A stretch of 64,000 nucleotides of DNA from an uncultured Roseobacter sp. (GTDB lineage: Bacteria > Pseudomonadota > Alphaproteobacteria > Rhodobacterales > Rhodobacteraceae), in contig NZ_CANLYL010000006.1 of the NCBI RefSeq assembly GCF_947495275.1, positions 124,001 through 188,000 on the forward strand, in the 5' to 3' direction. The notes beneath the pieces were generated by a model. It saw only the letters and a program-made list of their open reading frames with translations. It ran no database searches and was not told the origin of the DNA. Made by a program: the position numbers and the translations under genes. Positions 6,010 to 46,220 of this stretch are shown in pieces; positions within the stretch are counted from its first letter, which is position 1; every line of letters begins with the position of its first letter.

Positions 6010-6231
6010 ATGGGAGAAAAAGGAAATCTGGTCACGGACAACGCGGAATTTATTCCCGGTGAACGTGGCCTGGAAAACGAGTTGAGCGCGGCGGAAGCTG
6101 CAGAAGTTGCTGTAAACCTTGCCAAAGCCGAGGCCGAGAAACTGAGCACTTCCGGAACTGCGAAAGCTGTGAAGCCTCGCGCCAGGAAGTCAGCCACCAC
6201 CCGCAAGAAAACCGGAACAAAGAAGCGTTAG
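6010..6231 (+). CDS. Small protein with lysine/arginine-rich tail, partner of the RHS gene
   Basis: 73 residues. The first half is acidic and helical (GLENELSAAEAAEVAVNLAKAEAEKL); the last 25 are strongly basic (KPRARKSATTRKKTGTKKR), like a histone H1/HU-type AlaLys tail. The ATG follows AAGGGG at a suitable distance. It ends 25 bases before the RHS giant, whose own GGAGGA site sits in that gap, so the two look co-transcribed. No signal peptide or membrane segment. I do not recognise a family. It lacks the GGE/GGQ ending of Pup, so it is not a Pup homologue, but a lysine-rich small protein next to a possible peptide ligase domain is suggestive. It could also be a chaperone or a nucleic-acid-binding protein. 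Confidence 0.6.
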   Translation: MGEKGNLVTDNAEFIPGERGLENELSAAEAAEVAVNLAKAEAEKLSTSGTAKAVKPRARKSATTRKKTGTKKR

Positions 6232-6256
6232 GCGCGTAAATCGGAGGAATACACCG

Positions 6257-9200
6257 ATGGGCAAGCCGGGCTTTTTCGATTCCGAAGCGGCACATAATGA
6301 TTGTGTTTTTGGGCTACCCTATCCGGGGCGCATCTTTGGATTCGAGCAGGAATACGAAGTTTTCTCGGGCGACCGACAGGTAGATTTTCGGCAGATCATC
6401 AAACCGCTTGCTGATGCATCGAACCGGACGGCCTGTCCGGCGGGCGACGTCGGATTTTACCTCGATAGCGGTGCCCTGCTGATTTGTGACGGCTGGGAGG
6501 CCGAAATGGCAGCGACGCCTGAGCTTGTCGGCCCTGCCCTTTTCCGGGATCTGCCAGATAACGCCCGCCACTTGCGAGATGACCTGCTGAGCATTGTCCG
6601 CCAAAGGGTTCCAGGACAATCCGCCGATCTTTCCCTTAAAGGGTACTCGACCCATTTCAGCGCATCTTGCATGTCGGTCGATATAAGTGCGCTCAGCCGA
6701 CTTTACGCCCGCACCATGGCGCCAGCCATGATGTTGATGATGGATGTCACCACCTCGCCTGGGTTGCTGGTGCGCGCACGGCAGAACCGTTTCGAGATCG
6801 GTGGAGACTTCATTCCGCCCGGCGACAGGCTCTCCGCCGCGGCATTGTTTTTCGCGGCAAGCTATCTTGCGGCCCTCGACAGCCTGGTACGGGGCGATGA
6901 CAAGGCGCTGCCTTTTCAATTTGACGACACAGGGCTTGAACCCACGGTTCAACGACGTGGCACTTTTGCAGGTCGTGCCGCGTTTGGTGATGATCTTTAT
7001 ACGCGGGGGCGCGAGGCATTACTGCGCTTAGCCGATGGTTCACAGGTAAATGCCCAGCAAATGCTCTCGACGCTCTGGGCTCATCTGGAACCTATCGCCG
7101 CAGAGTTGGCACATGGGGAGCAAGTTGCGCTTGTGTCGCGCATGATTTCCGGTGCGTCCCCACTTCCTTTGGAGACACAGGAACCAACTCACGCGAGATT
7201 GCAGCCTGGCGCTGATCCAGCCCAGAGCCCCCGTCGCCCCCATTTGTTTGCCGAATGCCTCAAGCCGCGCAGCATAGGAACACGCAGGATCACGCCCTTC
7301 ATCGCCACCTGGGACTATGTGACCTACAGAGTAGAAGAGCGCTCAAGGAACTATTTTCTGAACGTGCCCTTCGCGGATGCCCGATCCTGGCTTGAGGCCC
7401 TTTCCACGGGCAACATCGACGCATGGATGGAGGCTCAAACCGGTGACGGGGACAGTATCAGAACGCTTTCCGATGCAGGAGACGCCCAACGGCCCGGCGT
7501 GTTTGATGAGGTCGATGAGGCTGCGCTGTCAGAGCGGTTCAATCACCTGGATCCGAAGAAAAAGAAAAAGAAGGAAGGTGGTTGCGGCTGCGAGGTTCTC
7601 GTGGATCGCAATGGTGACATCCGGATATGCATGCCACAGGTCGCAGATACGCAGACTGTGCTTGTGGAACAGGAGCCCCCGCAGAACGAACTTCGCATCG
7701 CCGAAGGTGTCTGGGTCAACAACGGCAGTTTCGGCCATGACCACATAGATCATCGCGTCCTGAGCCGTGGAGCAGACTTTGCGTTTGCGCGTCACTACCG
7801 ATCCGGGATCGACTATCTGGGCCCGATCGGGCGGAATTGGGATCACGGGTATAACATTCGAGTTGTTGTCCAGCCTCCCCCCACGGCGGAGTACTGCCCG
7901 GGCGGGTGGTGCGAACGCTTCAATGCCGCCGAAACAGGCGGCCCGCTCACATTTTATCACGGTACCGGGCGTGTCACCGAACATGCTTTTGCGTCTTGGG
8001 CCATTCGCTGGGTGAAATGGTGTGACGCCGATTTCTTTGCGGTTGTCACGACCTACCGGCAAAATGACGGCGAAGATTTCGAAATCGAACGCTACGCCGT
8101 TCTGTCGGGCAAAACTCCCAAAGGGATCAAGGATGAAATCTTCTTTCGCATTCGCTACCGGGGTGGGACCCAGGACTTTCTGGATTGCGAAGGTCGATGT
8201 GTTCGCAGTGAAGACAAAAATCGCAATACCACATGGTTCACCTACGGGCTGCCGTTTGACCCCGGAACAAAAACCTTCGTTCTAAGGGAAATCACCGACA
8301 GCATTGGTCGAAAGTACAAGATTGACTACCAATTCATCGGTGGCGGCCCAAGGATCAGTACTGTCACGGACCCCTGGCAACGGACATTCAGATACGTCTA
8401 TGACGCCAATATCCAGCTTACCGACGTCGTTCTGGTTGCCGGGGCCGCTGGCACCCCGCGCATCCGTTATCGCTATGCCGCGGGTGCGCGGGCCGGTCTG
8501 CTCTCCGAGATCGTCAATCCGCAGGAGGCCGCGGGAAGCAATGCCTCCTGGCTGAAAAACAAATACGACAGCAATGAGCGGGTAGTCAGTCAGCGGGTTG
8601 GCTCTCCCACCACCGCGGCGTCGGTTGCCGGGGGGACCTATGGGATCAACTACGCATCGGCCACGCAGGTCATTGTCACGGATCGCATGCAGGTCAAATG
8701 GACATATCAGCTCCGGCAAATGGGGGCGAGCAAGGTCGTCCGCGCAATCTCGGTCCGAGATCAGGTTGGCACCGGTGGCACAAGACGTGGGAAAACCCTG
8801 CGCACATCAATCGAGTACGACCAGCATTATCATATCGACAGGATGGTTCACCCCAGCGGCCGGGAACAACTTGCGACTTACCGCAATGTGAACCGATCAG
8901 TCACGCTGGGGGACGAACGGGACGATGTCTTTCTTGATGTCACACATTACAACGACCTTGGCCGCGACGCGCGACTGACCATGACCCGGGTCGGGATCGG
9001 TGGGACGACCAGATTCCAGACCACGTATAAATATGAATGGCTTTTCGGCGCCTTGACGGAAATGCGTAGCCCCATGGGGTTGACCACCCTTGAGTATGAT
9101 CAGGGCCGTTGCGCCACGCCGCAATACAACGGCAATCCCCTGAAAGTCACCTATCCCGCGCAGGCCTTGCCGACGGGCGGCAGCGTTCCCGTGGTGTCGG

Positions 9201-12200
9201 AGTATGACTATGCGCCGGGTGGCATTCCGAAATACTACAAGGACCCGGATGGCATCGAGCAGGAATGGACCATCGATGGCGCGGGGCGCATCAGGCGCAA
9301 TATGATTGGCGGCGAGTTGGTAGAGGCGTTCTCCTTTTCGGATCGCGGCACGATTGATACGCGCACCGATGCGCGCAACCGGGTCTGGCGGTATACATAC
9401 GATGACCGCGATCTCGTCACCGCCGAGGTCGATCCGCTTTTCCATGTGCGCTTCCACAACTACAACCTGAACGACTGGCCGGTTCTCACGATCCGACAGC
9501 GTGTTGATGACCCCGCATCGTTTACAGGCATCGCGGCGCAGGGTCCGGTGCGCCTGTTCGATGTGACGGCCTATGATATTCTCGGCCAGCGCACCGCGAT
9601 AACCGAAGTTGCCTCTGGGCCTGTAGGATCGCAGGCGCGCAGCTGGCAATGGGAATATGACGCAGAGCAACGGGAAACCCTGCAGATCAGCCCGCGCGCG
9701 ACTTCCCGTGAACGGTCGGATGCAAGGATACAGACGCTTTACACGGCACGCGGACAAATCACGTCGCACACATCCGGCTTTGGTGGCACGAACGAGGGCA
9801 CCGTGCTCACCTATTATGACGAGGATGGGAATGTCTCGCTGGTCATCGATCCCATCGGCCAACGCACCGTTACCAATTATGACGACATCGGCAGGCCGCT
9901 CACCGAGGAACGGCCAAACGGTGCGATCAGACATCTTGAATATCGTGGGCCGGTGCTCTTGCGTGAATGGGTGGAGGGGCCCCTGACCGCACGCCCGACG
10001 CAGCTTGGCGGATCCACCGTCACGCGCGTCCTGCGAGAGATCGTCTTTACCGTCGATGCCAACCACCAGCCGATCGTGCGCAAGCACAAGATATTTGATC
10101 CACGCCAACGACCCGCCATCACGGCGGGCGGAGGTACCGACTGGGTTGAGCAAACCTGGTTCACGCCAGGTGGCAGATTGCAACGTCAGCGCGACCCGGC
10201 TGGCAATGATGTGGATTTCAAATGGAACCCCCAGAGCAGGCTTGAAAAGGTCACGCTGCCCGGCGGACATTCACTGGCCTACAGCTACGATGGCGATCTT
10301 GTTCTTACGGCTACCGCGACAATGCTGCCGGACGCGGGCATCACCGGCCCCCTGCCGCCGGCAAACCTGGTTTTGCAAGAGGTCAACAGCTATGACGATC
10401 TCGGGCGCCGCCTGACCCATCGGGATTCAAACGGCACACTTGTCAGTTACGCCTATGACAGTGACGGCAATTTGCGGGGCCAGCGTTCAGCCCTGCAACA
10501 GGGCAGCTTTACCGTGACAGAATTCAGACATGATGGGTTCGGACGCCTTCTGACACAAATCACGGATGCCGTGGCCAGTAGCTCAAACCCTGATGGCCAA
10601 ATGCGTCTGGCCTTCGAATATGATTTGAACGACAACCGTATCGGCCTGACAGATGACTTGGGACGCGTCACCAAGGTGACCTTCGATGGCCGGGATCAGG
10701 CCCTGACCATCCAGCAACCCGAGCAACGCGATTTGACGTTCACACGCAGGCAGGATGGACGGATCAAAAAGGCTGTGCGCACGGGTGGCCGCACCTCGGA
10801 CTTCACCTATTCCCGCACCGGCAAACTGACGGAGGTTCTTCACCGGAACGGTGCGGAGTCAATTCGACAAACATTCGGTTTGGATGGGCTTGACCGCATG
10901 TGGTGGGCGGCGGATTCGAACGGAGGGGCACAATTTAGGGTGCAGACCTATCGTGCCATCGACTCAATGGGGCGCACAACAAGCGAACGCACCAGCATTC
11001 CGGAATTCACCTTTGACGAAACGGTCATTTACAAATACGGCATCGGTCGGCTGGATATCGGCTATCCTGATCCAATCGGGCGCGCGACCTATCAGTTCAG
11101 CGGAGACGGCAACGCCAAATCCATCAGTTTTTCACGGGTCGGGACATTGGTTGCCGCCAAACATCAGGGACCTGGCCGCCTGCTTCAGACTGAACGCCCG
11201 ATCACCCTCAACGTGCGACAGCCTGCGCAAACCCTTAATCTCAAGGTGCGCACCAGCCAGCGGCTTGATACGAAGGGGCGCCCGAATTTCCGCGTCCTGC
11301 ATATCACGGATGAGATCAACCGTCCCGGCCAACCGAACTATCTCGCGCTCAGCACCAGTGCGGAGAAAACAAGTTACGAGGTTAACGGGCTTCCGTTCCG
11401 GCGCGACTTCGGTGTCATCGGACAGCCGGGTACGTCGGTCGATTCCACGTTTGTCTATGATGGTTTGAGCCGTGCCAAAACGATCACCGAAGGCGAGGGC
11501 AACGACTTCGCGAACTTTGACTATGACTGGGATGGCGCCGGCCGTCTGCGTTCTTTTGAAACGAATGGGCGCAAGGGTGGGCAAATCGTCGATGAAGCCA
11601 CAAGCATCACGTATTCGGCCGGGCAACGTGTTGATCAGCTGACCAGCGCGGGAAATCCCGTCGGGACCACAACCTGGAAATTCGATGATGATGGCCGCCT
11701 GATCAATGCGGCTGAAACGCAGCCACCCGGAAGCCGAGCGTTCGGCTACGATGCGCTGGACCGGCTTTCAAAACTCGATGTTTTTACACCCGGTACATTC
11801 ACTACCTCCCAGGACACATCGACATTCCTTTACGATGCGCTCGGGCGCATCATCGTTCGCACAAGAGACGGCACGTCTGAATTCTACATTCACGATCGTG
11901 ACAAGATCATCGCCGAGTTTGACAACCAGCAACGGGCTGTCCGGCGCTATATCTATGACGAAAGACGCAGCTTGATACATTACGGCCTGCGTGAAGGGGC
12001 ACGGTGGCGCAATTTCCATCCCATCGTCATGCAAGACGGCGCACCCTGGTTGCTATTGGAAGGCAACCCCACGATTGCGACGCTTCCCCCACCGCCAGGT
12101 GCCATGGCCGCCGCCGTGACCCGTAGCGCTTATTTCCGCACGCAGCTTCCCATCATTCGTGAAGAAAACCGGTGGCGTCCGTTCGAAAAAGGCGTGGTTA

Positions 12201-13462
12201 TCCGCTATGATTATACTTCGGGAACGGGACAAGGCGCCGTAGTCGACGCATCTCTGCTGCCGCTTGACACCGGGGGCCGTCGGTATTTCGCCGAGGAACG
12301 CCTCTTTGCCAATGGGCCGAGGTTTTATGATCCGGCATTGCGCAGCTTTATCCAGCCCGATCCCTTGGGGGCCTGGGGTCATTCGATGGCCTACGGCAAT
12401 CCCTATGCTTATGCCGGGAACAACCCCGTGGCCTTTGGAGATGACGGGTTCCATCCCGCCGTGGTGGGTCTGCTGATCATCGCAGGTATCGGCGCACTGA
12501 TCGGCGGTGCCATAAGTGCGTCACGTCAGGGCGTGCAGCTTCTGGAAGGATCGCGCCGCAGCTTCAGCTTTGGCGAGGTGGGCCTGTCCATGGTGTTCGG
12601 GTTTGTTGCTGCCCCTGTGCTTGTGCTCGCCCCGGAATTGGCCATTCCGCTGGTCGGCCTTGGGCTTGCCAATACCTATTCTCAATACAGATCCGGACAG
12701 ATCGGCGGCGCGACAGTGGCCTTTGATGCGGTCACTCTACTGGTTCCATTCGCCTTCAAAGGTGTACGCTCAGCCACGTTCGGCAGAGATACCTACATCG
12801 GTCAGTTGTCCGGACTGGGACCCGCGGCCTCCGCCGGTGCGCGTGCTGCCCGATTTGAAGCTTTCGCGCTGAGTGTTGGACAGGCTGCGGCCCGCCGGGG
12901 CTTGATCCGCTCACGAGCCCTGTCGCAGGAAGCGGCGGCCGTGGAAAATGCCCGTTTCACACCCGAAACGCTTCAACAGCTTGACGAGCTTGGCGGATTT
13001 GCCATCGAAGGCGAGCTCACCGAGAGCTTCATCGCCCGGATCGTGACCGAGGAACGCGTTGGCAGCGGTCAACAGGGTACGGTGTTTGAATCGGCGGATA
13101 ACCCTGCACTCATCATCAAGATCTTCAACAATGAACGCGGGGCGGCAAACGAGATTGCCGGTCTGCATGAGTTTCGCGCCGCGGTAGAAGGGCGAACCTT
13201 TGCACCGGGAGCAACGCCTGTGAGGGTTGTGCGTGTTTATGCTGCCGGGCGCACGAGCACCGGCAGATCATTCATCGTCAAACAATTTGCCGAAGGTGAT
13301 ATTATCCCTGCCCATATCTGGCTCGAAGAAGGAGGGCACGCGTCACTTCTTGCAGCGATGCAGGCGACGCATCCCTCCTACAACACGGTGCCATTTCTGA
13401 GCCTGCGAAATAACTTGGTGCAAACACCAGAGCGGTCGATAATCATCTTCGACCCCATGTAA
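6257..13462 (+). CDS. Giant RHS-repeat protein: PafA/Dop-like N-domain, RHS core, kinase-like C-terminal tip
   Basis: 2401 residues, no signal peptide. Residues 1-430 look like a carboxylate-amine ligase of the PafA/Dop (glutamine-synthetase) type: GFEQEY at 28-33 resembles the metal-binding GIExEY, YLDSGALL...EMAATPE at 68-89 resembles the PafA NGARLY...HPEYATPE block, STHFSAS at 131-137 sits where GCHENY lies, and RFEIGGDF at 178-185 where CxSQRAxxI lies. A KKKKKK run and a GGCGCE motif (434-446) lead into a DUF6531-like start (about 480-560). RHS/YD repeats follow to the core-end motif RFYDPALRSFIQPDPLG at about 2022. Two hydrophobic segments (2066-2140) precede a ~160-residue tip with VGSGQQGTVF (2268-2277), IIKIF (K2288) and a terminal NNLV...IIIFDP, as in kinases but without a clear HRD aspartate. 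RHS identity is secure; the two end domains are my inference. No immunity-like gene follows. Confidence 0.85.
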   Translation: MGKPGFFDSEAAHNDCVFGLPYPGRIFGFEQEYEVFSGDRQVDFRQIIKPLADASNRTACPAGDVGFYLDSGALLICDGWEAEMAATPELVGPALFRDLPDNARHLRDDLLSIVRQRVPGQSADLSLKGYSTHFSASCMSVDISALSRLYARTMAPAMMLMMDVTTSPGLLVRARQNRFEIGGDFIPPGDRLSAAALFFAASYLAALDSLVRGDDKALPFQFDDTGLEPTVQRRGTFAGRAAFGDDLYTRGREALLRLADGSQVNAQQMLSTLWAHLEPIAAELAHGEQVALVSRMISGASPLPLETQEPTHARLQPGADPAQSPRRPHLFAECLKPRSIGTRRITPFIATWDYVTYRVEERSRNYFLNVPFADARSWLEALSTGNIDAWMEAQTGDGDSIRTLSDAGDAQRPGVFDEVDEAALSERFNHLDPKKKKKKEGGCGCEVLVDRNGDIRICMPQVADTQTVLVEQEPPQNELRIAEGVWVNNGSFGHDHIDHRVLSRGADFAFARHYRSGIDYLGPIGRNWDHGYNIRVVVQPPPTAEYCPGGWCERFNAAETGGPLTFYHGTGRVTEHAFASWAIRWVKWCDADFFAVVTTYRQNDGEDFEIERYAVLSGKTPKGIKDEIFFRIRYRGGTQDFLDCEGRCVRSEDKNRNTTWFTYGLPFDPGTKTFVLREITDSIGRKYKIDYQFIGGGPRISTVTDPWQRTFRYVYDANIQLTDVVLVAGAAGTPRIRYRYAAGARAGLLSEIVNPQEAAGSNASWLKNKYDSNERVVSQRVGSPTTAASVAGGTYGINYASATQVIVTDRMQVKWTYQLRQMGASKVVRAISVRDQVGTGGTRRGKTLRTSIEYDQHYHIDRMVHPSGREQLATYRNVNRSVTLGDERDDVFLDVTHYNDLGRDARLTMTRVGIGGTTRFQTTYKYEWLFGALTEMRSPMGLTTLEYDQGRCATPQYNGNPLKVTYPAQALPTGGSVPVVSEYDYAPGGIPKYYKDPDGIEQEWTIDGAGRIRRNMIGGELVEAFSFSDRGTIDTRTDARNRVWRYTYDDRDLVTAEVDPLFHVRFHNYNLNDWPVLTIRQRVDDPASFTGIAAQGPVRLFDVTAYDILGQRTAITEVASGPVGSQARSWQWEYDAEQRETLQISPRATSRERSDARIQTLYTARGQITSHTSGFGGTNEGTVLTYYDEDGNVSLVIDPIGQRTVTNYDDIGRPLTEERPNGAIRHLEYRGPVLLREWVEGPLTARPTQLGGSTVTRVLREIVFTVDANHQPIVRKHKIFDPRQRPAITAGGGTDWVEQTWFTPGGRLQRQRDPAGNDVDFKWNPQSRLEKVTLPGGHSLAYSYDGDLVLTATATMLPDAGITGPLPPANLVLQEVNSYDDLGRRLTHRDSNGTLVSYAYDSDGNLRGQRSALQQGSFTVTEFRHDGFGRLLTQITDAVASSSNPDGQMRLAFEYDLNDNRIGLTDDLGRVTKVTFDGRDQALTIQQPEQRDLTFTRRQDGRIKKAVRTGGRTSDFTYSRTGKLTEVLHRNGAESIRQTFGLDGLDRMWWAADSNGGAQFRVQTYRAIDSMGRTTSERTSIPEFTFDETVIYKYGIGRLDIGYPDPIGRATYQFSGDGNAKSISFSRVGTLVAAKHQGPGRLLQTERPITLNVRQPAQTLNLKVRTSQRLDTKGRPNFRVLHITDEINRPGQPNYLALSTSAEKTSYEVNGLPFRRDFGVIGQPGTSVDSTFVYDGLSRAKTITEGEGNDFANFDYDWDGAGRLRSFETNGRKGGQIVDEATSITYSAGQRVDQLTSAGNPVGTTTWKFDDDGRLINAAETQPPGSRAFGYDALDRLSKLDVFTPGTFTTSQDTSTFLYDALGRIIVRTRDGTSEFYIHDRDKIIAEFDNQQRAVRRYIYDERRSLIHYGLREGARWRNFHPIVMQDGAPWLLLEGNPTIATLPPPPGAMAAAVTRSAYFRTQLPIIREENRWRPFEKGVVIRYDYTSGTGQGAVVDASLLPLDTGGRRYFAEERLFANGPRFYDPALRSFIQPDPLGAWGHSMAYGNPYAYAGNNPVAFGDDGFHPAVVGLLIIAGIGALIGGAISASRQGVQLLEGSRRSFSFGEVGLSMVFGFVAAPVLVLAPELAIPLVGLGLANTYSQYRSGQIGGATVAFDAVTLLVPFAFKGVRSATFGRDTYIGQLSGLGPAASAGARAARFEAFALSVGQAAARRGLIRSRALSQEAAAVENARFTPETLQQLDELGGFAIEGELTESFIARIVTEERVGSGQQGTVFESADNPALIIKIFNNERGAANEIAGLHEFRAAVEGRTFAPGATPVRVVRVYAAGRTSTGRSFIVKQFAEGDIIPAHIWLEEGGHASLLAAMQATHPSYNTVPFLSLRNNLVQTPERSIIIFDPM

Positions 13463-19619: not shown

Positions 19620-21506
19620 TCATGCAGAGCGCCGCAACGTACGATCTTTGACCGCTGCCTCAAAAAACGCTTCCAATTCGCGATTGAAGACCTCTGGTTG
19701 ATTGAAGAAAGGCGCATGCCTGCCGCCGGGAATATCGGTTGGATGCCCTTTCCAGACGTTTCCGAAAGGCAGATCAGCAATGTAGCGATGGTTCAGAAAC
19801 GGGTCGTCATCACCGTTCATGATGGCAACCGGGATGTCCCCTTCGCGCAGCATGCGCATCTGGCGCGGCCAGTCGACCACGGTCAGTTTGGTGATCATGT
19901 AATAGCGCGCGCGACCATCCGTGCGGCGCACGTTTCTGTGCAGAAAGGCGCTCTTGTCCGATTTTGGCACGGTGGCATGACTGGCCAGAGTTACCGTTTC
20001 GCGTCCCGTCAGGTATTGCTTTCCCGCCAGAATGATATGCGATTTGGCGTTATGCCCACGGGCAAAATCATCCGGCGCAACGGTCAGCGGCGATGTTCCC
20101 GTGGTCACGACACCGCTGTAGGCCGCCGGATTGCGTGAGGTCAGCTCCAGCGCGTTATATCCCCCCAAAGACCATCCAACGACAAAAGGGCGCTCGACAC
20201 CCAGTTTTTGCAGGATTTCTTCGGCAATATCCGCATAAGCGATCACGTTATAGGTCTGCTCGGGCGATCCGTTGTCGGACACGCCATGCCCGGGCAGATC
20301 AAAAGCAATCAGGCGGTGCCGGTCACGGAAATGGGCGAACTGGTTCTGAAAGGCTTCCTTGCAGGCGGAATTGCCGTGCAAAAACAGGATCGGCGGGCCC
20401 GCATGTTGAGCCGACGGGCCGATATCGACGACAGCAATGCGGCCATGGGCCGTGTCGATCATCTGCTCCGGAATGCCGGTGATTTTCTGACGTACAGCGC
20501 GCTCGGCACCTCTGCGGTAGCGGGCCATCATACTGCTGCGCATGTTCTGGGCAAGCTCCCGCAGCTCCTGAACGACGCCCCAGAGCCCGCCGGGGTAGAA
20601 AATCATCACCGCCACAATCAGAATGGCGATGAGAATGTCACGCCAGGGGCCCAGCGATGCCATGCTTTCAGACAGCAGAATGATGATGAAAGCGGCGATG
20701 ACAGGCCCCCAAATCGTGCCAAGCCCACCGACCAGCAGAATGGACAAAACCAGCGTCAGGCTACCAATGCCAAAGATATCCGGGGAGGCCACACGCACAT
20801 AGGAGCCATAAAACCCCCCCGCGATCCCCACAAAAAACGCACTGACCGCGAGCGTGGCCAGACGGGTTTTCCACTCGGACACACCGCGCGCCTGTGCGTA
20901 ATACTTGTTGTCTCTCAACGCGACAATGCTGCGACCCAGGGCGCTGCGCGTGATCAGAAACAGCGCACCCACCGACCCCACCATGAGCACAAACGCGGTG
21001 TAGTAATAGCCGATCTTGCCGTCCTTGACGAAACGGTATCCGTCGATTTGCAGCATCGGCAGGGTGACCATGCCCGAGGTGCCCCCGGTGATCTGGCTTT
21101 GACTGATGACAATCTGGTAGAGGATCTGGCTGAAGGCGATGGTGACAAGGATCACATACATCCCGTCAAGGCGCAGCACGGGCAGCACCATGAAGGACGC
21201 CACCAGCGCCACAATCGGGCCGGACAGCAGGATCGCCAGCCAGGGGTTTACCCCGTAGGTTTTGGCCAGAATGCCATATGCGTAGATGCCAACGGCGAAG
21301 AGCGCCACATGGGCGAAATTCAGCAAGCCGCCATAGCCGAAACTGAGATCCCAACTGGCTGCAACAATGGCAAAAACCATCGCCAGGATCAGCAGGTGCC
21401 GCAGGTAGGATGCATCAAAGACAAATGGGAAAACCGCCAGCAGGACCACGGTCACGACAGTCGGGATCAGGCCGTTGGTGAGGTGAAATGGGGGATCGTA
21501 GCGCAT
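19620..21506 (-). CDS. LivM-type ABC permease fused to an alpha/beta hydrolase
   Basis: 628 residues from the ATG at 21506, two bases past the LivH stop (the frame is open to 21563, inside livH). Residues 1-315 are a complete LivM-family permease: about 8-10 TM segments, SWDLSFGYGGLLNFAHVALF near the start, and the EAA-like loop ALGRSIVALRDN. A basic linker (316-345) leads to an alpha/beta hydrolase (346-628) with the oxyanion HGN at 377-379, nucleophile elbow GWSLGG (Ser446), an acid at D566-D568 and a His at H597. There is no stop, frameshift or internal start signal at the junction. The LivM C-terminus normally faces the cytoplasm, so the hydrolase would meet the substrate as it enters. 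The substrate is probably an ester, lactone or amide. It is the last gene of its liv operon. Confidence 0.9.
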   Translation of the reverse strand: MRYDPPFHLTNGLIPTVVTVVLLAVFPFVFDASYLRHLLILAMVFAIVAASWDLSFGYGGLLNFAHVALFAVGIYAYGILAKTYGVNPWLAILLSGPIVALVASFMVLPVLRLDGMYVILVTIAFSQILYQIVISQSQITGGTSGMVTLPMLQIDGYRFVKDGKIGYYYTAFVLMVGSVGALFLITRSALGRSIVALRDNKYYAQARGVSEWKTRLATLAVSAFFVGIAGGFYGSYVRVASPDIFGIGSLTLVLSILLVGGLGTIWGPVIAAFIIILLSESMASLGPWRDILIAILIVAVMIFYPGGLWGVVQELRELAQNMRSSMMARYRRGAERAVRQKITGIPEQMIDTAHGRIAVVDIGPSAQHAGPPILFLHGNSACKEAFQNQFAHFRDRHRLIAFDLPGHGVSDNGSPEQTYNVIAYADIAEEILQKLGVERPFVVGWSLGGYNALELTSRNPAAYSGVVTTGTSPLTVAPDDFARGHNAKSHIILAGKQYLTGRETVTLASHATVPKSDKSAFLHRNVRRTDGRARYYMITKLTVVDWPRQMRMLREGDIPVAIMNGDDDPFLNHRYIADLPFGNVWKGHPTDIPGGRHAPFFNQPEVFNRELEAFFEAAVKDRTLRRSA

Positions 21507-21507
21507 G

Positions 21508-22395
21508 TCAGAGTGTTCTCTGATGGTGGCCGAACAGGCCCGAGGGTTTGATGGTGAGCACAACCGTCATCATGGCAAAGAGCATCGCTGGCGCCCAATA
21601 GAGCCCCAGGTAGAAAATGGTGAAACTTTCGACAAGACCAACGATCAGAGCCGCATATATGGGGCTGGTGAACCGCGCAATCCCGCCGAAAATCACAACG
21701 ATCAGCGCTTTCATGAGCGGGTCGGCGCCAAACGTGGGGTTGATGAAGCGGATGGAGCCGACGAAGTATCCCGCCATCCCGGCCATGGCGGCGGAAAGGC
21801 CGAAGGCCAGCGCATAGAGCAGCGGTACGTTCAGCCCCATCAGCTCAGCCGCCTGCCGGTTTTGCGCAACAGCGCGCATTGATCGGCCCGTTCTGGTGCG
21901 TGCCAGCAACCAGCCTGCAAACCCCAGGATGAGCGCGACCATGACAATCAGCGCGATGTCATTGCCCGAAAAGGCGACGGGCCCGATAGAAATTGTGCCC
22001 TCTGCAATCGCGACGATCTGTTTGGCGCGCGGCCCCCAGATCAGCAGCATGGCGTTTTGCAGGATCGTCGCACCCGCAAGGGTCGTGATCACCGTGGCCG
22101 CGATGATATTGTCTTTTCGCTCAAACGGCCGGATGAAGATTTGCTGGAAAAGGATGCCCGCCGCGAACATGACCACCAGCGTCGCACTGAGCCCTGCCAC
22201 ATGTCCCAGCCCCAGCGCCTCAGCATTGGACACCTGCCAACCGATGTAAGCCCCGAGCGCGATGAAAGCACCATGTGAAAAATTGAAGATACCCAATGTC
22301 GACCAAACCACGGCCAGCCCGGAGGCCATGAGCGCGTAGAGTGCGCCCAGCACGATCCCCCCTGACAGGACGAAGAGAAAGCTTTCGACACTCAT
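21508..22395 (-). CDS. LivH-type ABC permease (system 1)
   Basis: 295 residues, multi-TM, HAAT family. The first TM segment carries the LivH signature (GIVLGALYALMASGLAVVWSTLGIFNFSHGAFIALGAYIGW) and the cytoplasmic coupling loop reads RTGRSMRAVAQNRQAAELMGLN. It forms the translocation channel with the LivM-hydrolase fusion. The start ATG overlaps the LivF stop by 4 bases (ATGA), showing translational coupling within the operon. Confidence 0.93.
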   Translation of the reverse strand: MSVESFLFVLSGGIVLGALYALMASGLAVVWSTLGIFNFSHGAFIALGAYIGWQVSNAEALGLGHVAGLSATLVVMFAAGILFQQIFIRPFERKDNIIAATVITTLAGATILQNAMLLIWGPRAKQIVAIAEGTISIGPVAFSGNDIALIVMVALILGFAGWLLARTRTGRSMRAVAQNRQAAELMGLNVPLLYALAFGLSAAMAGMAGYFVGSIRFINPTFGADPLMKALIVVIFGGIARFTSPIYAALIVGLVESFTIFYLGLYWAPAMLFAMMTVVLTIKPSGLFGHHQRTL

Positions 22396-44189: not shown

Positions 44190-45914
44190 TTACAAGCCGC
44201 TGATAATCCCCAAAACGAACAAACCAACGAAGAATAACCCGATATAGCTGCAAACACGCATGAACTTGCTCCAGCCATCCAGCGCACCCCAAGGCCGTTT
44301 TTCCGGCTTGGCGCCACTTTGCGCATGATGTGAGGTCTTTTCATCTCCGCTTTGGCGCTGGGTCGCGGTTTTCTTCGCGGTCTTCATGGTCGAGGAAATT
44401 GTCTCACTCGTGCCAGCCTTGATATGAGCAAACTTGCGTCCAAGCTTCATGGCCGGAGACTCGTCTGACGTAGAATGCTTTTTTTGCGCGTCATCCTGAG
44501 GCCGCTTGGTTGTGACCAGTCGATCCCATTCATCAAAGAAAAGGCCCGGCTTGAAGTCACCTTCAAGATGGGTTTGCAGCAACTGGAAACACCGACGCTG
44601 CACCGAATTCATCTGATCTAGATTGAGCTTCAAAAGCCCGTTCAAGCTGTCTGACTGACCTTCGGAAAGGGTTCCATCGTGTTGCAGGTCATTGACCTGT
44701 TTGCGCATGCGCCGTGCCAGATCACGATGCGGATGCAGCCCGGTTTTGCGCAGGGAAACGGCACCGATGCCCGAGAAATTGAACTTTTGTGGCTTTTGCA
44801 GATGCTCGGCCTGCATCTGTTCCTCCAGATAGTCAAACAGTTCGCGGGTATCGACCGATCCATCGCCATTGCGGTCGGCAGCACCCTTGAGCCCGTCAAG
44901 CAGATGCTTTGTGAAGACGCCGTGCCGGTACCCTTGCTCCTCGCGAGCCACCTGGGTGCTTGTGGCCGAGGTCATCACAAGCGTGCGACTGCTTGCCCCC
45001 AGTTCCATCTTGAGTTGCTCTCCGAGGGCCGAACGCGGGGCTTCCTCTCCAGCAGCACCGGCATAGCAACAATCAAGGATGACCAGTCGCGCACGTGCCG
45101 GCGCCTGCTCGATCACATCCAGCAGATTTCCATATTTCATCGCTGTGGAATGGACGAGACCGGCGCGCGTATCAGCAAAAGCAAGATGGAGCTTTTGATT
45201 ACGCACCAACCCATGGCCCGCATAGTAGACCAGCACGAGGTCATCACGACGGGTCCCAGCCGTTATCTCTTCGATACGGGTCAAAGCCGCCATATGATTG
45301 CCCTTGGTAATCAGCTCAACGTGATCGAACTGCTCCCCGGTTTCTCCCTGTAGCAGATTGTGCAGGGCTGTTGCGTCGTTCCGGGCGTAACTCAGGTCCT
45401 CAAGCTCCGGGTCCTTGAAACGATCCATTCCGATAACAATTGCGGTTTTTTGTCCGCTCCGCCGTGCTTGAGATGTCTTTCGCCCCGGTTCGAATGGCCG
45501 AACAGGTTCTACCTCTGGCTTTGTTGCCTCATCAAAGGACGTTGGCGCTTCGGCAAAACCGGGCGTCAATCGCGACAAAATATCAAAAACACGCTTTTCG
45601 CTGAAATTCTTGGCGTTAAATATGACTTCCGCACCATCTTCTGCGCGCAGCTGGAATGACACGCTCCTTTCCCGCAGCACATAGGCTTTGAGAACGCCGA
45701 CAAGAGCGGATACCGCTGCTGACTGCCCGACTTCGATCCAAAGCTGCGGATCCAACAGCAGTTCAAGCGCCCGCTCCCCGGTCGCAGGTAACCGCGTCGC
45801 GCGCGTAGAGCTCACACCAGCTGTTTCGTTCAAATCACTGTTGAGCCGTTCCAAGAATTTGGACAAGGCTTCATCATCAAGTGCTGAAGACTGAACATCA
45901 AGTTTGAGTGTCAT
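44190..45914 (-). CDS. Membrane-anchored caspase-like protease with EF-hand loop
   Basis: 574 residues from the ATG at 45914 (GGGTGG upstream; the longer frame to 46064 is not protein-like). Residues 1-105 form a small domain (ALELLLDPQLWIEVGQSAAVSALVGVLKAYV, then SVSFQLRAEDGAEV) resembling effector-associated domains of bacterial conflict proteins. Residues 155-390 are a peptidase C14 core with the dyad His234 (YYAGHG) and Cys283 (LDCCYAG). A textbook EF-hand loop lies at 347-358 (DRNGDGSVDTRE), suggesting calcium control. The C-terminus is Lys/Ser-rich with a single TM helix at about 555-573, so the protease should sit on the inner face of the membrane by its tail. No partner effector is adjacent. 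Cell-death or defence role is inference. Confidence 0.88.
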   Translation of the reverse strand: MTLKLDVQSSALDDEALSKFLERLNSDLNETAGVSSTRATRLPATGERALELLLDPQLWIEVGQSAAVSALVGVLKAYVLRERSVSFQLRAEDGAEVIFNAKNFSEKRVFDILSRLTPGFAEAPTSFDEATKPEVEPVRPFEPGRKTSQARRSGQKTAIVIGMDRFKDPELEDLSYARNDATALHNLLQGETGEQFDHVELITKGNHMAALTRIEEITAGTRRDDLVLVYYAGHGLVRNQKLHLAFADTRAGLVHSTAMKYGNLLDVIEQAPARARLVILDCCYAGAAGEEAPRSALGEQLKMELGASSRTLVMTSATSTQVAREEQGYRHGVFTKHLLDGLKGAADRNGDGSVDTRELFDYLEEQMQAEHLQKPQKFNFSGIGAVSLRKTGLHPHRDLARRMRKQVNDLQHDGTLSEGQSDSLNGLLKLNLDQMNSVQRRCFQLLQTHLEGDFKPGLFFDEWDRLVTTKRPQDDAQKKHSTSDESPAMKLGRKFAHIKAGTSETISSTMKTAKKTATQRQSGDEKTSHHAQSGAKPEKRPWGALDGWSKFMRVCSYIGLFFVGLFVLGIISGL

Positions 45915-46220
45915 AACAAAACCACCCGGGACAATAAATAAACATAATAATGGGGTAAATAGTGCAGCAGTAGGACTGTCTGCGTCAATAGCTGTGTTCC
46001 CGTACTCCGTGTGGCGACAGGTTGATACATGTTTTGATGTAACCAGCGCATGCAGATACCGCACGTCGCTTACGCTTGGCTTCGCCTAAGCTGCCGCCAA
46101 TTTCCGCACCTCGGCATCTTCGCGGGAGGTCACTTGCTCCGCAATGGCACGGGTGCCGTGTGCGCAATTCTACCATATGGTAGTCAGATCAGAACCACGG
46201 GCCGCAATCGGCTTTGGAGG
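45915..46220. other. Gene-free stretch between BKACE and caspase genes
   Basis: No credible gene. It contains AT-rich sequence just before the caspase start (45920-45965), fit for a separate promoter, and a small imperfect hairpin near 46074-46090 (CTTGGC/GCCTAAG) that could end the BKACE transcript. So the caspase gene is probably not part of the catabolic operon. Confidence 0.3.

Follow-up and report, generated by a model that had tools for sequence, protein, structure and literature searches.

A probable remote offshoot of the PafA/Dop lineage fused to the N-terminus of an RHS protein in an uncultured Roseobacter

An RHS protein with a PafA/Dop-like head

The analysed stretch of DNA (hereafter the window, to which all positions refer) comprises 64,000 nucleotides from the genome of an uncultured Roseobacter sp. 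(GCF_947495275.1, contig NZ_CANLYL010000006.1), and encodes an RHS protein of 2401 amino acids, P0001 (6257..13462 on the + strand, whole open reading frame (ORF) with stop), preceded by a small lysine-rich protein of 73 amino acids, P0002 (6010..6231, + strand). The first 404 residues of P0001 (6257..7468, + strand), termed the head, appear to form a remote carboxylate-amine-ligase-like domain of the PafA/Dop lineage, as indicated by chains of conserved sequence blocks, while ordinary alignment and hidden Markov model (HMM) methods do not reach significance. The head is collinear with the PafA/Dop blocks beyond what can be expected by chance and its homology to this lineage is considered very likely, with the head probably being a distant branch of the Pup-ligase lineage that has become joined to an RHS protein, rather than a pupylation enzyme. 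The proposal as a whole, namely an RHS shell with a divergent PafA/Dop-lineage head which binds Mg-ATP and performs amide chemistry, is given a probability of about 0.6. A preliminary description, made from the DNA sequence alone, had already suggested a Pup-ligase/depupylase-like head. This suggestion is partly upheld in that blocks beyond chance occur in both the N- and C-terminal parts and counterparts of functional residues can be placed at E30, E32, D78, E83, R327 and W352, but it must be qualified in that gapped alignment and HMM methods are not significant and several blocks are missing or altered.

Collinearity with the PafA/Dop blocks

The head was compared with PafA of C. glutamicum (checked against 4b0t), PafA and Dop of Nonomuraea, Dop of Acidothermus and a partial Dop of Tsukamurella. 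On a hand-chosen chain of seven blocks extending into the C-terminal domain the head scored 69.7, a value reached by none of 5000 shuffles, 3000 local shuffles or 352 decoys. The decoys are ORF pieces taken from all six frames of fetched DNA, and many of them are not true genes, while some overlap. When the chain was rerun, none of 858 decoys or 3000 new shuffles reached this score, and the best competitors attained 41.6 (5000 shuffles), 43.1 (3000 local shuffles) and 32.8 (858 decoys). The decoy sets of the alignment and block tests excluded any frame with GFEQEYEVF, which marks the head, or HENY, which marks known PafA/Dop proteins, while the window decoys of the first hmmsearch excluded the frame of the head only.

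As the seven blocks had been picked by hand, an automatic chain was constructed, for which a four-sequence PafA/Dop alignment was tiled into 33 windows of ten columns, among which the chain chooses freely. The head scored 28.3 at a block cost of 7 (shuffle mean 7.1; sd 2.9) and 39.9 at a block cost of 5, with none of 300 shuffles or 349 decoys as high in either case (z = 5.9 and 7.35 at the two block costs). The windows RIFGFEQEYE, LDSGALLICD, EALLRLADGS and ATWDYVTYRV were all reused by the automatic chain.

The head could also derive from another group of amidoligases with the glutamine synthetase (GS) fold, of GCS2-like or Amidoligase_2-like type. The signature GhExE is common to the superfamily that includes GCS2 (PMC2588565), and the motif RFEIGGD with the helix following it resembles strand 6 of GS/GCS2 by eye. 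Four GCS2 (PF04107) gamma-glutamyl-cysteine ligases, from four of ten fetched loci, share this signature but score only 16.8–21.8 on the seven-block chain, compared to 69.7 for the head, and thus the likeness appears specific to PafA/Dop rather than to the superfamily at large. Together with the lack of a GCS2 or Amidoligase_2 Pfam match to the head, this makes such an origin quite improbable.

Candidate catalytic and nucleotide-binding residues

The first block, GFEQEY (residues 28–33; 6338..6355, + strand), lies exactly where the preliminary description had placed it and was recovered by both the block scan and the automatic chain (window RIFGFEQEYE, 17.4 bits). Its GFEQE (28–32) conforms to the GhExE metal/ATP motif of strand 1, with E30 and E32 as the acidic residues. 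The second block, SGALLICDGWEAEMAATPE (residues 71–89; 6467..6523, + strand), was found by the block scan and the chains and contains the residues corresponding to the catalytic Asp (D78) and the metal-binding Glu (E83). A PafA/Dop block had been claimed at residues 68–89, and one does occur there, with EAEMAATPE at 81–89, but the parsing needs correction and the block is better placed at 71–89. The PafA/Dop sequence NGARLYLD..HPEYATPE falls on SGALLICD-GWEAEMAATPE, with D78, not D70, as the counterpart of the catalytic Asp, and the His of the family block (NGxRLYxD...HPEYxTxE) is replaced by E81. Only the first half of this block (LDSGALLICD) was picked by the automatic chain. Together, the first two blocks (at 24 and 71) score 28.7, which none of 20000 shuffles or 502 decoy pieces reaches, with the best shuffle coming close at 28.1 (Gumbel fit, p 0.00036). 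The distance between them resembles that in PafA, with 38 residues separating both Y33 from S71 in the head and Y19 from N57 in C. glutamicum PafA, and by block spacing the Dop loop (40–65 residues before strand 2) is absent from the head.

A third block, corresponding to the PafA/Dop LRLxDGrxxTAxQxQ block, is located at LLRLADGSQVNAQQ (residues about 253–268; coordinates 7019..7060, + strand, for 255–268), a place absent from the preliminary list. It was recovered by the block scan and the automatic chain, with 191/20000 shuffles and 0/502 decoys matching as well. Aligned with Acidothermus Dop, E30, E32, D78 and E83 of the head correspond to E8, E10, D94 and E99, respectively. D94 is described as the likely activator of water in Dop (PMC8599861). 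R227 and H241 of Dop, which hold the phosphate, have no clear counterpart in the head.

A further match, likewise absent from the preliminary description, spans residues 326–358 (RRPHLFAECL...ATWDYVTYR). It falls within residues 318–404 (7208..7468, + strand), a possible counterpart of the C-terminal domain, which according to PMC12053664 is unique to PafA/Dop and contributes R418 and W440 of PafA to nucleotide contacts. By block alignment, R418 and W440 of C. glutamicum PafA correspond to R327 and W352 of the head. The best of three variants of the C-terminal blocks, taken alone, was equalled by 1/5000 shuffles, 3/3000 local shuffles and 0/352 decoys (0/858 decoys and 1/3000 shuffles when rerun), and the other two by 27 and 29/5000 shuffles, 19 and 25/3000 local shuffles and 1 and 3/352 decoys. 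These blocks were first spotted by eye, starting from a Dop motif, a post hoc risk which is answered in part by the automatic chain. When modelled alone, residues 318–404 gave a predicted local distance difference test (pLDDT) value of 78.7 and a predicted template modelling score (pTM) of 0.68, with a helix, a beta meander and two helices.

In the favoured explanation, the N-terminal place of P0001, normally that of a delivery domain, would be taken by a very divergent PafA/Dop offshoot of the GS fold, whose most likely activity is Mg-ATP binding combined with amide chemistry, either now or in the past. Mg-ATP would be bound via E30, E32 and E83 together with the C-terminal R327 and W352, while D78 would promote the formation or cleavage of an amide bond between a carboxylate and an amine, either inside the cell that makes P0001 or following its delivery. 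Retention of nucleotide binding is judged to be somewhat better than an even bet, and for presently active amide chemistry the odds fall a little short of even.

Lost blocks and the possibility of a dead head

A number of results weigh against the PafA/Dop assignment, beginning with blocks that are lost or altered in the head. For [HQ]x[NH] of core strand 4 (HENY), the best place is GYSTHFSA, with H133-F-S135. The segment GYSTHFSAS (residues 129–137; 6641..6667, + strand), the best yet weak candidate for a degenerate HENY block, was skipped by the automatic chain. Residues 131–137 had been put forward as a match, but the HENY block is best placed at 129 with only 5.6 bits, and the HENY and LRLADG blocks together are equalled by 9/858 decoys. 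Similarly, no convincing match in place was found for the INTRDEPH and [QH]x4D (RRLHVIVGD) blocks, to which R227 and H241 of Dop belong. The proposed match at 178–185 fared no better, as residue 178 is only the third-best place for INTRDEPH (2.1 bits) and is not among the three best places for RRLHVIVGD. RFEIGGD (residues 178–184; 6788..6808, + strand) is by eye a possible strand-6 motif, where the scan does not place RRLHVIVGD.

The degenerate HENY block and the missing INTRDEPH and RRLHVIVGD blocks would fit a head of PafA/Dop descent that is catalytically dead and now works as an adaptor for the RHS shell, as its cap or as an address for delivery. Counterparts are nevertheless present for the metal-binding and catalytic acids (E30, E32, D78 and E83) and for the nucleotide-binding residues (R327 and W352), and this alternative is given roughly one chance in four.

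The remaining adverse results come from the automatic chain, ordinary sequence comparison and structure prediction. The automatic chain skipped the HPEYATAE, HENY and RAHLRG windows and added between one and three weak, implausible ones. Residues 1–430, which include the head, have no match in Pfam, NCBIfam, PHROG or PADLOC and nothing better than E 0.44 among PDB sequences. The head falls outside the first 15 hits of an unfiltered hmmsearch with PafA/Dop profiles, and ranks 113th when the profile is built from Dop alone and 8th when it is built from four sequences, with shuffles placed above it. With hhalign, E-values of 0.34 (Dop alone) and 0.019 (four-sequence profile) were obtained. Profile-global alignment gave z-values of 1.9–3.4, with 2–11 of 300 shuffles and 0–9 of 172 decoys as good, and local gapped alignment z-values of 0.9–1.8, with 48–163 of 1000 shuffles and 54–138 of 580 decoys as good. 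Global alignment of residues 318–404 was at chance level against two Dops (1316 and 3378/5000 shuffles as good) and Nonomuraea PafA (1169/5000), and modest against C. glutamicum PafA (119/5000; 25 with softer gaps). In an AlphaFold2 prediction without relatives, residues 1–408 reached a pLDDT of 42.5 and the N-terminal part failed, with ten-residue blocks of 331–390 at 82–89. In a Foldseek search of residues 318–404 against the PDB no match reached E ≤ 0.001, and neither Dop nor PafA was among the best 50 of 239, which argues against the C-terminal assignment as a close match would be expected to appear. The head model likewise found no significant Foldseek match, and no significant match was obtained against the viral libraries. 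Lastly, the scans made for the head turned up no homologue in which conservation of these residues could be seen.

These results can also be accommodated if the head has nothing to do with this lineage and its block matches stem from chance and reader selection, as standard alignment and HMM methods are blind to the relation, the C-terminal blocks were first noticed by eye and no Dop was among the best 50 of the 239 Foldseek matches for 318–404. With automatically chosen blocks the main places nonetheless come out again, and the score stays above every one of the 300 shuffles and 349 decoys examined. The matches of the N-terminal part and of the C-terminal part are also rare when taken singly, so that this alternative is considered improbable. 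Block order in the absence of gapped-alignment significance may instead reflect remote homology with long insertions and deletions, which gapped methods penalise, and descent of the head from the PafA/Dop lineage is preferred.

Search for relatives of the head

Scans for the head relied on short exact patterns or on samples, and distant or unsampled relatives may exist. Within this scope, a convincing match was found only in the own genome among 99 relatives, 398 genomes of the phylum and 394 of the family (393 genera; probably Rhodobacteraceae), sets which each include the own genome and may overlap. No homologue was found in viral contigs (searched with the single protein and three alignments) or, by tblastn, in plasmids and phages, and in genome contigs the single protein and alignment A3 gave 13 and 593 pattern matches, respectively, none of which was confirmed. 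PF03136, the PafA/Dop family, did not match the head at E-values of up to 1 and 10 and, with the limit set at E 10, gave nothing in the own genome. It matched in 9/299 genomes of the phylum, all below the cut-off. In a PF12224 scan of relatives, the controls themselves gave no signal.

Among the weak matches outside the own genome, one (L013) shows 32 % over residues 99–210 (E 0.0048). A second (L014) was rejected as an aldehyde dehydrogenase, named by eye, and a third (L034) as a 31-residue frame with stops. Two other RHS proteins (L032/L035 and L033/L036), which were included among the 858 decoys, match only at about residues 473–537 and by eye have N-termini without such a head. The RHS protein of L035 (G705:C1:17000-29000), from the same family, is encoded directly behind a 779-residue protein with an end that is PASTA-repeat-like by eye.

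The 73-residue protein and the question of Pup

P0002 was described as lysine-tailed, which is accurate, with ten lysines in 73 residues and eleven K/R in the last 25. It has no match in Pfam, NCBIfam, PHROG or PADLOC at E-values up to 1, and is linked to the head by adjacency alone. As a candidate Pup it was rejected, with 4412/5000 of its own shuffles aligning to Pup equally well or better and a C-terminus (KKR) lacking G[EQ]. The by-eye resemblance of residues 397–470 of P0001, which include the linker behind the head, to Pup was also rejected, as 231/5000 shuffles did equally well and comparable scores occur elsewhere in P0001. For Pup itself, the own genome gives at best 13.6 bits, where the cut-off is 27, and no proteasome component occurs among ten further annotated proteins of the window, the genome not having been searched for proteasome genes.

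Should the head act on P0002, the lysine acceptor would be its likelier role, as its KKR end excludes a Pup-type donor role via a C-terminal Glu. P0002 is the most accessible candidate partner, as acceptor or binding partner, and that it is a substrate of the head is considered unlikely. Slightly less likely still is that the head acts as a Pup-independent conjugating enzyme, which would join P0002, the RHS shell or a target via isopeptide bonds between carboxylate and lysine.

RHS shell, linker and C-terminal tail

The RHS identity of the giant protein, as first described, is borne out by matches to PF05593 (RHS_repeat; 3.1e-28), DUF6531 (6.9e-6) and Rhs_assc_core (2.4e-10). The shell starts with DUF6531 (residues 485–538; 7709..7870, + strand; Pfam), and the RHS-associated core lies at residues 2007–2062 (12275..12442, + strand). 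At the border of shell and tail, for which PMC8636562 gives the cleavage motif PxxxxDPxGL, P0001 has the degenerate NPVAFGDDGF (from residue 2056). Head and shell are connected by the linker KKKKKKEGGCGCE (residues 434–446; 7556..7594, + strand; read from the translation), a run of six lysines followed by EGGCGCE. Two hydrophobic stretches by Kyte-Doolittle lie behind the core (about residues 2064–2135; 12446..12661, + strand).

The C-terminal tail (residues 2265–2401; 13049..13462, + strand) is weakly protein-kinase-N-lobe-like, with the last 137 residues matching YrbL (PF10707) at 0.0014 and 18.7 bits, short of the 31.5 required, and a MAD6 kinase at 0.05, far below the cut-off. By eye, likely equivalents of the glycine-rich loop, the beta-3 Lys and the alpha-C Glu can be distinguished, with no HRD-type Asp. 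The tail ends in IIIFDPM, about where the DFG motif of a kinase would fall. No relative was found in plasmids, the best PDB match is not better than E 0.27, and a match in a sister genome was rejected as out of frame within another gene. The RHS shell would be expected to hold this kinase-like tail, as other RHS proteins do.

The N-termini of RHS proteins specify delivery (PMC8636562). For the 285-residue RHS N-terminal region no relative was found in 58 other genomes, plasmids or viral contigs, and no PAAR match was found in P0001 with Pfam. An ordinary effector of the type VI secretion system (T6SS) with a PAAR-type head that merely escaped recognition would account for the RHS shell, the hydrophobic stretches behind the core and the separate tail. 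It is nevertheless very improbable, considering that neither a PAAR match nor the T6SS sheath protein VipB (0/1 for the own genome; E. coli control positive) was found, that the two genes upstream have no Pfam match and that no immunity-like gene is seen in the 186 bases between P0001 and the next gene on the + strand, although an immunity protein that escaped recognition may be encoded elsewhere.

Comparison with known systems

P0001 shares with PafA/Dop (PF03136) the GhExE motif, the NGARLYxD..HPEYxTPE-type block, the LRLxDGr block and, by block alignment, the C-terminal R and W, in equal order. It differs in lacking a PF03136 match, in the loss or alteration of HENY, INTRDEPH and RRLHVIVGD, in having neither the Dop loop nor a Pup that could be found, and in the fusion of the head to an RHS protein. 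To our knowledge, the PafA/Dop lineage has been described almost only from pupylation. If the assignment is true, a distant member on an RHS protein would show this amide chemistry put to use beyond proteasomal tagging, and a PafA/Dop-like domain would be a new kind of RHS head. Residues 1–404 with P0002 constitute a small construct that is open to testing.

With RHS polymorphic toxins such as Photorhabdus Rhs1 (PMC8636562), P0001 has in common the YD/RHS shell, the DUF6531 start, the RHS-associated core and a separate tail, but it has no PAAR or prePAAR head, degenerate cleavage motifs, no adjacent immunity gene that could be seen and no T6SS sheath match in its genome. The CDC123/R2K ATP-grasp peptide ligases of toxin loci may serve as a conceptual precedent for the head (PMC4431377). 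They too are predicted ATP-dependent, amide-forming protein modifiers in toxin-type loci, but have the ATP-grasp fold and are encoded by a separate gene, while the P0001 domain is the N-terminus of an RHS protein. In the part searched of a survey of polymorphic toxins (PMC3482391), the terms amidoligase, Pup, PafA and glutamine synthetase do not occur. The combination of RHS and a Pup-ligase-like head was not found elsewhere, in agreement with the preliminary remark that no such RHS protein was known, which holds, judged by titles and the opening of abstracts, among the matches listed in the open-licence literature, where absence is not proof that none exists.

The gene pair and its surroundings

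P0002 and P0001 are separated by 25 bases on the + strand, and their starts are preceded by the Shine-Dalgarno-like stretches AAGGGG and GGAGGA, respectively, both read by eye. Both frames are intact, with no stop or frame break, and guanine-cytosine contents by codon position are similar in the head (0.64/0.49/0.61), the RHS part (0.61/0.48/0.66) and the neighbouring genes. Promoter and terminator scans gave a signal about equal to that of shuffles. Library scans show an FAD-linked oxidase upstream of the pair, along with a small protein that matches no family, and downstream a weakly molybdopterin-oxidoreductase-like protein and a GGDEF/EAL protein. The molybdopterin-like gene is the next on the + strand, 186 bases 3' of P0001, and its product matches PF00174 at 1.6e-4 and 21.7 bits (cut-off 24). 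This gene was matched in 5/19 genomes of the genus, including the own genome, with weak matches in G016 and G014. The two best other genomes (G017 and G003) keep it adjacent to the GGDEF/EAL gene, and nothing in the 16–17 kb fetched from them matches the RHS pair. As these sister genomes keep the two downstream genes together without it, the RHS pair looks like variable cargo.

Elsewhere in the window, a 624-residue protein with a caspase (Peptidase_C14) domain of the bacterial metacaspase type is encoded at 44193–46064 (− strand; E 2e-15), and a single ORF at 19623–21563 (− strand) fuses a branched-chain amino-acid permease domain with an alpha/beta hydrolase domain.

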